In this document: one piece after another, positions 1 through 30,391 of the stretch
Layout: the number at the start of each line of letters is the position of its first letter
How positions within the stretch are numbered: position 1 is the stretch's first letter
Assembly (NCBI GenBank): GCA_007693955.1
Contig: RECR01000071.1
Span: 1 to 41,390 of the forward strand
Source: Gloeocapsa sp. DLM2.Bin57
GTDB taxonomy: Bacteria; Cyanobacteriota; Cyanobacteriia; Cyanobacteriales; Gloeocapsaceae
Length of the DNA stretch: 41,390 nucleotides
Direction: 5' to 3'
Position numbers and translations under genes: made by a program
Notes under the pieces: model-generated
The model's input: only the letters and a program-made list of their open reading frames with translations
What the model was told of the DNA's origin: nothing
Database searches by the model: none

Positions 1-328
<328 letters not shown>

Positions 329-25355: not shown

Positions 25356-25469
25356 CTATGATTTATTTTTAATTCGTAAAATCGCCTGACTAAAACCTAA
25401 AACAACTACTAAATTAGAGACAGTCAGAAAAAATTCTGCGCCTCCGTGTAACCAATCTATATTAGCTAA
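25356..25469 (-). CDS. DUF3593-type membrane protein, exon 2 (after intron)
   Basis: This 114-nt segment encodes the C-terminal 37 residues (LANIDWLHGGAEFF... ending in LRIKNKS) and a TAG stop. It has no start codon of its own and is in phase with exon 1 once the intron (25470-28364) is removed. The second hydrophobic helix of the protein lies here. Recognition as DUF3593 is from memory of the conserved LANxDWLHGGAEFFLT block. Confidence 0.82.
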   Translation of the reverse strand, partial: LANIDWLHGGAEFFLTVSNLVVVLGFSQAILRIKNKS

Positions 25470-25510
25470 GTTAGAGTCGATGGGTGTATCACTACACCAC
25501 ACCTCTCTTC

Positions 25511-25550
25511 CGAAACCGTACGTGAGAGTTTCCCCTCATACGGCTACTCA
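25511..25550 (-). ncRNA. Group II intron domain V (catalytic hairpin)
   Basis: The minus strand reads AGCCGTATGAGG, a GAAA loop, then CTCTCACGTACGGTT, forming the stem-loop with the two-nucleotide bulge typical of domain V. It is the most conserved part of the ribozyme and binds the catalytic metal ions. It sits between the maturase stop and domain VI. Confidence 0.9.
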
Positions 25551-25581
25551 ACTAGAATGCGTTTTGACATTACGCGCTTCC

Positions 25582-27369
25582 TCAGTTCCAGTGACCTTCC
25601 TCGATGTACTCTTTTAGCCATCTTTTTTGATCCTGTTTTGTTTTTTCATCATGACAATGTCCATGCAGTAGTTGTAAGTTTTTCAAACCATGACCTCCAC
25701 CTTTCGATTTTGGCTTAATATGATCAACTTCCAATATATCTCCATCTTTGAAATATAAACCACACCAAGTACATCTACCCTTCTGTCTTTGTAACAGTTT
25801 CGCAACCTTATTCGGAGTTTCAGGATATTGACCTCTTCGCGTAGCCCAGTACTTCCAATCTCCATCGTAAGGACTTTTATCTCCCCTAACCTTTATATAG
25901 TCAACACTTGAATGATGTTCACCTTTAGGGTTATAGGTTTCCAACTTATACCTAACTTCTCCTTCTCTGGTCGAAAATACCTTTCTTCCATCTATCTTCT
26001 GCCAGTATTTTTTATAGAAGTTTTCTTTCGATCCCTTCGATACTGCCCAACCTCTGAGTTTTTCATACAACATACTATCACATTTTGAGAGTATCCCCAT
26101 ACTTTTTGTATCACTATGTCTGTAATACTGCCTCCACCCTCTTATTTTCGGATTTAACTCCTTAATTAGAGCAGCTTGTGGGGCTTTTCTTAGAGCTTTA
26201 ATTACTCTTTCTATCCCCTTCATATGATTCGCTATTTTCTCTTTGGTCGGATGAATGAGTACTCTCCACCCGAGGGGAACACTTTTCGTATTTCTTGCAC
26301 ACTTATGTTTACTCATCTCGTATCCACGTATATGGAATCCTAGAAAATTGAAACCTGCCTCTCCATCTTCACTTCGTTCAGGATAAACAGTGTGTGCTAG
26401 CCGTGTCTTTTCAGGTTTTAGTTCAAGTCCTATGTCAAGTAACCATGAGGATATTAATTCCTTACATTCCAAGACAACCTCTTTATTCCTATGTAGTACA
26501 ACAAAGTCATCCGCATATCTTACGAATGTTAATGACCATACTCTGCCTTCTCTACTAAGGTTATGTCCTCCAGGTGATTTCCACCCTTTTGCATTTTCTG
26601 CATATTTTTTTAGCATTCTTTCAATCCCATCTAGAGCTATGTTTGCTAATAAAGGGCTTATAACACCACCTTGAGGAGTTCCCATTTCTGTCTTAGAAAA
26701 TACCCCTTGGTCTAATACACCAGATTTTAACCAGGCTTTAATTTGTTGCCTTAACAAACCTTTATAACCTGTTTTATCTAGTAGGGCATTATGGTTTATG
26801 CGGTCAAAACATTTCGCTATGTCAGCATCTAGAACATATTTCTCTGCTCCTTTTACTGCATCTTTTATGTGTTTTATCGCATCTTGACAAGACCTTCCTG
26901 GTCTAAACCCATAACTGGAAGGCTCGAATTTTGCCTCCCATTCAGGTTCTAAGGCTAATTTTACCAGTGCCTGGAGTGCTCTATCATACATTGTTGGTAT
27001 TCCCAATGGTCTCTTCTCTGTCTTTCCGGGTTTTGGTATCCACACTCTGCGCGTAGCTTTTGATTTCCCAGTTAACTTTAATTGACCTACGAGTTTCACA
27101 CGAGCTTCTCGGGACAACGATTTAACACCATCCACACCTGCCGTTTTCTTCCCTCGATTATCTTGCGATACCTGTCTGACAGCTAACACCTTAGCCGACC
27201 AAGATCTCATCAGCGTTTTCTGGAGTTTCCTTACTTTACGGACATTACCACAACGTGAAGCTTTGTATATTCTCTTTTGGAGGCGAAACACTGTAGTTTG
27301 AACTTTCCGCCAATCGACATTAGCCCATTCCCAATCAATGTCTCTTACCACATTTTCTGTTTTAGTCAT
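25582..27369 (-). CDS. ltrA: Group II intron reverse transcriptase/maturase with HNH endonuclease
   Basis: A 595-residue intron-encoded protein that helps splicing and carries out retrohoming. The RT domain (about 75-330) shows GVDG, IPKPGKTEKRPLGIPT, SSYGFRPGRSC, TPQGGVISPLLANI and the catalytic YADD at 285-288, so it looks active. The maturase (X) domain spans about 360-470 (IRGWRQYYRH). The C-terminal HNH nuclease (about 535-585) has two Cys pairs or equivalents (CTWCG, HGHCH) and EVDHIKPKSKGG. No frameshift or stop is present. It lies inside intron domain IV. Confidence 0.96.
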   Translation of the reverse strand: MTKTENVVRDIDWEWANVDWRKVQTTVFRLQKRIYKASRCGNVRKVRKLQKTLMRSWSAKVLAVRQVSQDNRGKKTAGVDGVKSLSREARVKLVGQLKLTGKSKATRRVWIPKPGKTEKRPLGIPTMYDRALQALVKLALEPEWEAKFEPSSYGFRPGRSCQDAIKHIKDAVKGAEKYVLDADIAKCFDRINHNALLDKTGYKGLLRQQIKAWLKSGVLDQGVFSKTEMGTPQGGVISPLLANIALDGIERMLKKYAENAKGWKSPGGHNLSREGRVWSLTFVRYADDFVVLHRNKEVVLECKELISSWLLDIGLELKPEKTRLAHTVYPERSEDGEAGFNFLGFHIRGYEMSKHKCARNTKSVPLGWRVLIHPTKEKIANHMKGIERVIKALRKAPQAALIKELNPKIRGWRQYYRHSDTKSMGILSKCDSMLYEKLRGWAVSKGSKENFYKKYWQKIDGRKVFSTREGEVRYKLETYNPKGEHHSSVDYIKVRGDKSPYDGDWKYWATRRGQYPETPNKVAKLLQRQKGRCTWCGLYFKDGDILEVDHIKPKSKGGGHGLKNLQLLHGHCHDEKTKQDQKRWLKEYIEEGHWN

Positions 27370-28364
27370 TTACCTTTCCTACTTGAAACTATACTCTGTT
27401 CTAATTGCGGAGTACGTCTGCATATCCCGGGCATTACCCCTTCCCTTTTTAGGCATTACCTGTCAATTCAGGTTAGGCTTTAGCTTCTTACTCCATCCCT
27501 CCTATACCTACCGTCTGGCTGACTAACCTACTTGGAATATCGACCCTTCCAAGAGATAGATATAGGTTAATTCGTTCCGAAATTTCCATTGATTGTAATC
27601 TTTAGGTCTTATCTTTACACCGGGTCTATATAAATGCTCTACATAACGACACTTGTTCTGTAGTATTGACCTTATCCTATATTTAGGACGCCAGGAACTC
27701 AACCTATATATCTCCCTGACTACTAAATTACGATGCTTCATACGATAATTCGTTTCCTAACCCACGAGTTCCGCTTCCTTGATGCTATCTCAGTCCCGCT
27801 CGAATATAAATTACATGCTCGTTATTCTTTCGGCGCAAGGTTGTACTTTGCCTCAGTCTAACTTTTAGCCCTGCTTCAACTCCATTCGTCGTCAACGTTC
27901 ATGTGTTGAGGGTCTCCTCATCTCCTTTCAGAGAGAGGCGCTCTATGCTTTTCCACCAGCATTAAGTGGGTAGGACTTCCTCTTTTAAGATGTTCTCTTC
28001 TACTGTCTTAGTATTTACTCGGTAGAATTCAGTCACCTACATGGAAATTTCAGTTGTCAAGGTTCGGTTTTTACTGTTCGGTAATCACTACTCGGCTTGT
28101 TCGGTTTTCCTCTGTAAAGTTATGTAAACTTTATTTCTTCACCATTATTTTGAGTATGTCTTTAAGTATTATTACTTATCGATTTTCAGACTCCCTTCTT
28201 TCATCACCTTCCTCTAGAATCGATTTTAAGATATCTTAAAATCCCTTTTTGAGGATTTATACCTTGCTAGGTCTTATAGTGTCTAGAATCGTCATCTAAT
28301 GTCCTTTCAGATGATAATCTGATTAGACTTTGGCTATACACACTTCAACCTAAACGAATCGCAC
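27370..28364 (-). ncRNA. Group II intron RNA domains I to IV (5' part)
   Basis: These 995 nt hold no credible gene; they are the 5' structural part of the intron, from GTGCG at 28364 to the maturase start. Notable is a perfect 22-bp palindrome at 28222-28243 that as RNA gives a 9-bp stem with an ATAT loop, consistent with a domain I helix. I could not assign EBS1 with confidence: exon 1 ends GATTCT, and only wobble-paired candidates were seen. Confidence 0.75.
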
Positions 28365-28544
28365 AGAATCGTTATAGTGAACTTTACTATAAATCCCCGC
28401 GGGAATAGTAATCGCCACAAATAATAACAATAGATAAAAGCCAATTAAGGCTAAACGAGGGGTTGTCTCGGATTTCGTTAGAAACCAAAGAAACCCCAAG
28501 TAGGGGAATAAAGACACAGCAAAAAGAGTCTCTGGAGAAATCAT
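28365..28544 (-). CDS. DUF3593-type membrane protein, exon 1 (intron-split gene)
   Basis: The gene starts at ATG 28544, 2 nt after the feoB stop. Exon 1 encodes 60 residues (MISPETLFAVSLFPYLGFLW...KVHYNDS) with two hydrophobic helices (about 6-22 and 33-52). Without splicing the frame runs only four codons into the intron (VRFV then TAG). With splicing the product is 97 residues, the usual size for this small cyanobacterial/plastid-type membrane family. Function unknown. Tight linkage to feoB suggests cotranscription. Confidence 0.85.
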
Positions 28545-28546
28545 TA

Positions 28547-30391
28547 TTATGCTAAACCAACTAAACGCATACCTTGATAGAATAGCAAACTCATTACCCA
28601 TGCTAAGGCAAGAGGGAACACTAAGGATAAAATAGTAAAGCCAACTGAACGAGTTTCACCCCAGATAGTGCTAATAGTGGTTAAACAGGGAATATAAATG
28701 AGACTAAAGATACAGTAGCTAAATCCTTGAGCAAAAGTGATAGTCTCACTCAATTTAGCAGCTAAAAGGTCATTATCACTCAAAGAGTAAATAGTAGCTA
28801 AAGCCGAGATTTGTACTTCTTTAGCAATAAATCCAATCAACAGAGAAACAGTTAGAAAAGGATTAATCCCAATTAGACTCATAATTGGGTCAAAAATCAT
28901 TCCCAATCTACCAGCAAAAGTATCTAAACCTTCGCTGTCTGCGGGAAAATTACTTAATAACCAGATCACTGTTCCACCTACGATCGCAAAAAGAGTTACT
29001 CTCTGTACAAAATGTTTCATCTCATTCCAGACTCGCCAGAATACCTGTTTCAGGGTAGGAAAACGATAGGGAGGTAATTCTAACACGAAAGGTTCACGAC
29101 TTTGGAAATGTTGGTTATTGCTTAAAATTGCGGCTACTCCAAAAGCAACGACGAAACTAAGTAGGTAGAGGAGGAATAAAGCGATCGCCCCCTGTGGACC
29201 TGGTAAAATAATCGCTAAGATAAAGACGAATACTTGTAATCTAGCTGAACAAAGAGAAAAGGGAATAATCAGCATAGATAATAACCGCATGGATCTAGAA
29301 CGAATTACCCTAGTACCCATTATTGCAGGAACATTACAACCAAAGCCCATCATCTGCAACACAAAAGCGCGACCATCTAGCCCCAGACGCGCCATAAAAG
29401 CGTCCATAATATAGGCGGCGCGAGGGAGATAACCACTGTCTTCTAATACCGACATAGCCACGAAAAATAACCCTACCAGAGGTAAGAAAGAGATAATCGC
29501 TGCAAACCCCCCCCAAATCCCATCAATTAGTAATTCTTTGACTGTTTCGGGTAAAAAGCTCAATACTGGTTCAAGTATTGTCTCTTGTATCCAACCTGTT
29601 ACCGCATCTACAGGATCAGCAGAAGGAAGACCAATAGTCCAAATTAACCAGAATACCACTAACATGGTTAGAAAGAAGACAGGTAAGCCCCAAATTGGGT
29701 GCAACATTACCTTGTCTATAGTATTGGTAAAGGTCATCGCGGTGAGAGAAGGCATTTCTACCGCATTTTCTAGGGTGATAACTAAATCATCTTCTGTGAC
29801 AGGGTTAGTAGCAAGATGAGTTTGGAGATTATCGACTTTGTAGCTTTGAGGTTGTTCGGCTAAAACTTTTTCTATCCCTGCTATCGCCCTTTGACAACCA
29901 GTCCCATATTTAGCACTAATGGGGTAAACTGGCATTCCTAGGCGATCGCTTAACATCTCTTGGTTGATTTTAACACCATAGCGTTTAGCCTCATCGGACA
30001 TATTTAAAACTACTACCGCAGGAATCCCTAGACTTTTAACCTGTAATGCCATCCGAATCTGACGATCTATTTGCGTTGCGTTAATAACCACCAAAATCAA
30101 ATTAACCGAGTAAGTTTCTAAAAACTTTTGTACAACCCTTTCATCTTCGCTATAACCATTGAGATCATAGATTCCTGGTAAATCAACAAATTCTACCGAC
30201 TCTTGGTTCATTTTGATAGAAGCTTTCAATAAATCTACCGTTAATCCCGGCCAATTAGCTACCGCAGCCCCAGCCCCTGTAATTCGGTTAAAAAACGTGG
30301 ATTTACCCGTATTTGGTTGTCCAATCACCCCAATGCGTTTGATTTTACTGGAGATATCTGGATATACAGCCCCACTATGACAATGACTCAT
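28547..30391 (-). CDS. feoB: Ferrous iron transport protein B
   Basis: FeoB imports Fe2+ across the inner membrane. The 614-residue protein has an N-terminal G domain with GQPNTGKS (24-31), DLPG (70-73) and NMSD (130-133), then about eight to ten membrane helices with the two Gate-type segments (SARLQVFVFILA and the second half around FIAKEVQISALATIYS). It is shorter than E. coli FeoB (773 residues), mainly at the linker and C-terminus, as is common in cyanobacteria. No feoA lies upstream. A divergent SGNH gene is 177 bp away. The DUF3593-type gene follows directly. Confidence 0.95.
   Translation of the reverse strand: MSHCHSGAVYPDISSKIKRIGVIGQPNTGKSTFFNRITGAGAAVANWPGLTVDLLKASIKMNQESVEFVDLPGIYDLNGYSEDERVVQKFLETYSVNLILVVINATQIDRQIRMALQVKSLGIPAVVVLNMSDEAKRYGVKINQEMLSDRLGMPVYPISAKYGTGCQRAIAGIEKVLAEQPQSYKVDNLQTHLATNPVTEDDLVITLENAVEMPSLTAMTFTNTIDKVMLHPIWGLPVFFLTMLVVFWLIWTIGLPSADPVDAVTGWIQETILEPVLSFLPETVKELLIDGIWGGFAAIISFLPLVGLFFVAMSVLEDSGYLPRAAYIMDAFMARLGLDGRAFVLQMMGFGCNVPAIMGTRVIRSRSMRLLSMLIIPFSLCSARLQVFVFILAIILPGPQGAIALFLLYLLSFVVAFGVAAILSNNQHFQSREPFVLELPPYRFPTLKQVFWRVWNEMKHFVQRVTLFAIVGGTVIWLLSNFPADSEGLDTFAGRLGMIFDPIMSLIGINPFLTVSLLIGFIAKEVQISALATIYSLSDNDLLAAKLSETITFAQGFSYCIFSLIYIPCLTTISTIWGETRSVGFTILSLVFPLALAWVMSLLFYQGMRLVGLA

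Follow-up and report, generated by a model that had tools for sequence, protein, structure and literature searches.

Group II introns in protein-coding genes have reportedly been described for Trichodesmium erythraeum, by Liu in 2003 and Meng in 2005, and such introns are also said to reside in a bacterial heat-shock operon and, outside this phylum, in the recA gene of Geobacillus kaustophilus. The ends of group II introns follow the motifs GUGYG at the 5′ side and AY at the 3′ side. According to one review, group II introns inside housekeeping genes are uncommon in bacteria at large, and it is in cyanobacteria, with the CL and ML lineages, that introns do sit in such genes (PMC4424553). CL-type introns have expanded in cyanobacteria, as stated in a second study (PMC8919778). 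For Trichodesmium, a third report describes several genes interrupted by group II introns, documents splicing in vivo for 17 introns, of which ten lack an ORF, and cites trans-acting maturases (PMC4649490).

The window, by which we mean the whole stretch of 41,390 nt that was analysed, contains a small conserved gene divided by such an intron. From its sequence we suggest with high confidence that a mobile group II intron has retrohomed into a DUF3593 gene and that splicing would restore the full protein of 97 aa. All features given below lie on the minus strand. Exon 1 (28365..28544, 180 nt) carries codons 1–60 and exon 2 (25356..25469, 114 nt) carries codons 61–97 and the stop codon. They are separated by a group II intron of 2895 nt (25470..28364, GTGCGATTCGTT...CTCTAAC), whose 5′ end was placed by the motif of its family and whose 3′ end by the Rfam model RF00029. 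The exons join in phase 0 at Ser60–Leu61, give 97 codons and a stop in frame, and are free of stops and frameshifts, whereas the unspliced reading meets a stop after four intron codons beyond exon 1 (a 64-aa product). In a profile search the joined product matched DUF3593 (PF12159) with 136.5 bits against a cut-off of 25 (E 3.2e-40), over residues 5–90 and profile positions 2–87 of 88. In the preliminary description of this locus the exons had been proposed to join exactly at this point to a DUF3593-type protein. All coordinates of the exons and the intron check, the profile match bears out the family, the exact boundaries are supported, and intron-free relatives have the same junction residues.

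The gene product is a small conserved cyanobacterial membrane protein. We compared it with 81 homologous loci, namely that of the sister genome G001 of the same genus and the best 80 of 237 homologues, which were chosen as good matches and are all cyanobacterial by title; from these homologues the window is taken to be cyanobacterial. The joined protein keeps 45 of the 47 columns conserved at ≥95%; exon 2 keeps all 16 of its columns at this level and encodes the conserved block LAN-DWLHG-AE-FLT, which is wholly retained. The two conserved residues that are altered are K4P and A53S, and G001 also lacks K4 and also has a serine at position 53. Synonymous sites of the gene are saturated relative to this sister genome, so that a dN/dS value for DUF3593 is unusable.

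A DUF3593 match was found in 277 of the 291 genomes of the order, the window genome included, and among the matches listed the window genome has the only intron-split DUF3593 gene seen in these 277 genomes. This statement is based on the match counts per genome and on the re-examination of 21 genomes. The 14 genomes without a match gave a best E of 0.018 on re-examination; of the other seven, three belong to the genus g88 and have matches broken by stop codons, one has a match that begins at the edge of a contig, and three have extra matches that are not split halves. The gene is single-copy in the window genome, where no second copy was found (99.95% complete). In G001 the gene is whole, 81% identical, and reads NDSLAN at the junction, and none of the 81 loci needed more than one aligned piece. 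The relatives thus provide intron-free alleles with the same junction residues. In the genus g88 the gene is stop-broken in three and unmatched in the fourth of the genomes G181, G191, G229 and G251, which measure 2.5–3.1 Mb; the same-genus genome G168 (4.8 Mb) has an intact DUF3593 gene. In the open-access literature we found no report of an intron in a DUF3593 gene; DUF3593 is mentioned there for a diatom.

The gene had been described as lying directly behind feoB, and this holds: feoB (28547..30391, 614 aa, TIGR00437 with 582 bits) is directly upstream of exon 1, with a gap of 2 nt between its stop codon and the exon-1 ATG. This arrangement is not found among the homologous loci, as feoB lies within 400 nt upstream of DUF3593 in none of the 81 (one of which has only 394 nt of upstream sequence). 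A DUF2499 gene (PF10693) occupies this position in 60 of the 81 loci. In the window genome DUF2499 is on a separate contig, C51, and the position of DUF3593 behind feoB therefore looks like a local rearrangement. At the edge of the window (1–328) a minus-strand 16S rRNA gene is truncated by the end of the contig, so that its 5′ part alone is present.

The intron itself has the expected RNA anatomy. Its ends, GTGCG...AAC, fit the group II end motifs, and the 5′ motif GTGCGA[CT]TCGTT occurs in all 29 related loci of the order that were fetched; these loci are the best-matching related introns of the order search and not all of its matches. Domains V and VI (25470..25548) match RF00029 with 59.5 bits (gathering score 40), and the last 83 nt of the intron (25470–25552) fold 4.4 sd better than shuffled sequences. 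In the computed minimum-free-energy fold domain VI has a bulged GA, and its A at 25477, the eighth base from the intron 3′ end, is the predicted branch point. The earlier reading as a group II intron with a domain V and a candidate branch-point A is upheld by these matches.

The exon-binding sites were located in an alignment of 34 introns (that of the window, the 29 order loci, two more introns of this genome and one each of G001 and G002), each taken over 1000 nt starting at its 5′ splice site and scored for complementarity to its own 5′ exon. The EBS1 column reaches a mean complementarity of 0.79 to the last five exon bases (33 rows; background 0.375, sd 0.057) and the EBS2 column 0.70 to exon bases −13 to −8 (34 rows; background 0.384, sd 0.049), and several introns show little pairing at the two columns, in some cases because they are aligned out of register there. 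By this covariation EBS1 (AGTGTCG) is at 27647..27653 and forms six of seven pairs with IBS1 (CGATTCT, 28365..28371), which was placed in exon 1 by its complementarity to the EBS1 column. EBS2 (TTTAGT) is at 27722..27727 and forms five of six pairs with IBS2 (ACTATA, 28373..28378), also in exon 1 and in a register one base off the commonest one of the family. Both helices of the window intron hence have one mismatch each. In the window intron alone, equal or better chance pairings are found elsewhere in domain I, and it is for this reason that EBS1 could be located by the covariation of the family only.

Domain I of the window intron contains an extension of about 235 nt net (28065..28341, edges approximate) that is absent from the copies on contigs C66 and C132 of the same genome. 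BLAST alignments of the window intron with these two copies begin at intron nt 300, and the EBS2 motif is found at nt 630 in the window intron and at 395 and 397 in C66 and C132, respectively. The window intron could be taken for a chimaera, as its first 300 nt are unlike C66 and C132. We rejected this as unneeded, since introns of the same-genus genomes G001 and G002 have a stretch about 70% similar to the extension, which is about as diverged as the RT genes (64–67% over the aligned pieces), and a loss in C66 and C132 explains the difference.

The intron encodes a protein (IEP; 25582..27369) of 595 aa with a reverse transcriptase, a maturase (X) domain and an HNH endonuclease, as assigned with Pfam and NCBIfam (RVT_N, RVT_1, GIIM and HNH; the accessions for the RT/maturase being PF00078, PF08388 and PF13655). 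The frame is without stops, contains the YADD motif and scores 316 bits with TIGR04416, above the cut-off of 300, so that the RT/maturase is indeed intact as had been claimed. By sequence the closest solved structure is PDB 6me0 chain C (291.7 bits, IEP residues 7–581), which we take to be the maturase of the Thermosynechococcus elongatus group II intron T.el4h. Against the partial copy on contig C137 the dN/dS of the IEP is 0.15, which indicates that the IEP has been under purifying selection. Relatives of the IEP at E ≤ 1e-150 are present in 140 of the 291 genomes of the order, and the intron is probably of type IIB and chloroplast-like.

The window intron has company in its genome, a draft assembly of 138 contigs with eight domain V matches. 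Its nearest copy shares 88% identity with it overall and 91% over one stretch of 700 nt; the 5′ kilobase of the intron matches only the window, C66 and C132. On C66 the RT frame is 86% identical and open for 590 aa with two TAA codons at its very end. As both TAA codons are at the end of the frame, the IEP of C66 may well be intact. The flanks of the C66 intron read as pieces of a tnpB-like gene which do not give a single joined frame. The C132 copy has been reduced to 1070 nt by a deletion that removed the EBS1 region and the greater part of the ORF, and its flanks join in frame within a tnpB-like gene. On C137 (locus L132) the RT frame is 81% identical and stays open for 510 aa until the contig breaks off inside the intron. 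The 3′ exon of this intron is a Dus-family gene (PF01207, profile positions 65–309; dusB-like by eye), and a search of the assembly for the matching 5′ exon found none; besides this 3′ part, the genome has a single PF01207 match, to an intact paralogue on C44. Next to the matches on C114 and C89 and both of those on C33, the 3′ flanks show no conserved frame that reaches the intron.

Eleven domain V matches are present in G001 and two in G002 (77% complete), and the 5′ end could be located for five of the eleven in G001, leaving six without. The clearest case is on contig C193 of G001 (L195), where truB is split directly after GHGGTLD and the joined exons match TruB_N across the junction. Another G001 intron is in a PMT-like glycosyltransferase gene, in which the joined frame is open and the Pfam match starts past the junction. 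In G002 one side each was seen of a gene whose 3′ exon matches PfkB (contig C97, L202) and of a gene whose 5′ exon matches ABC_tran (contig C179, L204; livG-like by eye), the latter beside a livM-like frame. A further 5′ exon of G002 (L172) reads like the RNR small chain and at 50 residues has no Pfam match. Pfam likewise gave no match for a HAD-like exon of G002 and for two cases in G001, a glycosyltransferase-like exon and a join at the end of a gene, and the labels of exons without such a match were assigned by eye.

We regard the anatomy as correct and the mechanism as most likely correct. In this mechanism a mobile group II intron would have retrohomed into the single-copy DUF3593 coding sequence, the site being chosen through pairing of the final bases of exon 1 with EBS1 and EBS2. 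The feoB–DUF3593 transcript would then contain the intron, and the maturase encoded by the intron, or a related one acting in trans, would help the intron RNA to fold. The bulged A of domain VI would attack the 5′ splice site, and the exons would be ligated at Ser60–Leu61 to yield the full 97-aa protein. The anatomy, the in-frame junction, the conserved exons and the intact and constrained IEP are observed; co-transcription with feoB, splicing in vivo and the need for the maturase are what we infer from sequence. Related maturases could act in trans on the window intron, as the genome has two further open RT frames related to it, on C66 (590 aa) and on C137 (510 aa to the contig end).

The most serious alternative is that the insertion is dead for splicing, a defective intron having recently turned DUF3593 into a split pseudogene. 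The imperfect pairing of EBS1 and EBS2 and the deletion-damaged copy C132 in the same genome would fit such a history, and the gene can be lost, as the three stop-containing remnants and the one unmatched genome of g88 illustrate; a very recent insertion could moreover leave a dead gene looking intact. Nevertheless, the exons have not acquired a stop or a frameshift, exon 2 retains every one of its 16 conserved columns, and the IEP is both intact and constrained, and we consider this alternative unlikely. It is much less probable still that exon 1 alone encodes a functional protein of 64 aa and that exon 2 is a relic. The unspliced frame does stop four codons into the intron, but the conserved LAN-DWLHG-AE-FLT block is in exon 2 and fully kept, no functional-looking truncated DUF3593 was seen among the matches listed, and the weak matches that were re-examined contain stop codons or lie at a contig end. 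That an assembly chimaera placed an intron copy in the gene is hardly credible even for a draft of 138 contigs in which another contig, C137, breaks off within an intron, since the boundaries fit the 5′ motif of the family and the RF00029 3′ end to the base and the nearest copy is only 88% identical overall and does not share the first 300 nt of the window intron, which makes a collapse unlikely.

Related introns outside the genus were also examined. The sample consists of the loci that best match the window IEP and is not random. Domain V matches at the gathering score were obtained for 25 of the 29 order loci, and L139, L147, L150 and L166 were dropped as they had none. Adding five introns of G001 and the three of this genome (window, C66 and C132) brings the number with both ends located to 33; for L153 only 2 nt of downstream sequence are available. 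When the 240-nt flanks were joined and inspected by eye, a clear joined frame was seen in nine of the 33 (the window, L135, L195, L201, L151, L156, L160, L165 and L167). A Pfam match spans the junction for a ferredoxin (L167) and for PhoX (L160), and the photolyase-like join of L151 gave no Pfam match. At L165 the RNR small-chain gene is probably split, its Pfam match across the junction scoring 28.8 bits, under the cut-off of 33.6. The exon here is 42 nt long and is followed by the start of a second intron, so that this gene of genome G238 seems to contain two or more group II introns in succession. The G002 intron L172 is about two bases from the RNR small-chain intron site of L165.

A broader proposal, which we put forward with considerable doubt, is that the introns of this genus behave like organellar introns. 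They would repeatedly settle in conserved genes, of which both exons were seen for DUF3593 and truB and one exon for Dus, PfkB, an ABC-ATPase and probably the RNR small chain, and a few intact maturases would act on them in trans. That of the window would be among these, co-transcribed with feoB and possibly iron-responsive, and the expression of unrelated genes would thereby become coupled.

The DUF3593 locus offers a precise and testable case of a bacterial gene needing RNA splicing, with related introns in other conserved genes, and the genus lends itself to a natural comparison with the introns of chloroplasts. The results also suggest that annotation which does not join the exons may overlook such split genes or record them as fragments.

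Several known systems can be set beside it. The window IEP resembles the maturase of 6me0 over its full length, the match spanning the residues given above. As with the introns reported for Geobacillus recA and for the heat-shock operon, a housekeeping gene or operon is concerned, and the genes are different ones. The preliminary description had called an intron inside a conserved gene uncommon; this is right for bacteria at large (PMC4424553) and does not apply to cyanobacteria or to this genus, where truB is split and exons of Dus, PfkB and ABC-ATPase genes, each seen on one side, flank introns. Gene-splitting introns are thus familiar in cyanobacteria and recurrent in this genus. The closest parallel is Trichodesmium erythraeum, in which introns (PMC4649490) also sit in conserved genes, one of them of unknown function, and splicing also gives an intact frame. 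In vivo splicing is documented there for 17 introns, whereas here one ORF-bearing intron in another gene is concerned and its splicing is predicted. The DUF3593 intron is a clean new example of the gene-splitting introns already known in cyanobacteria.
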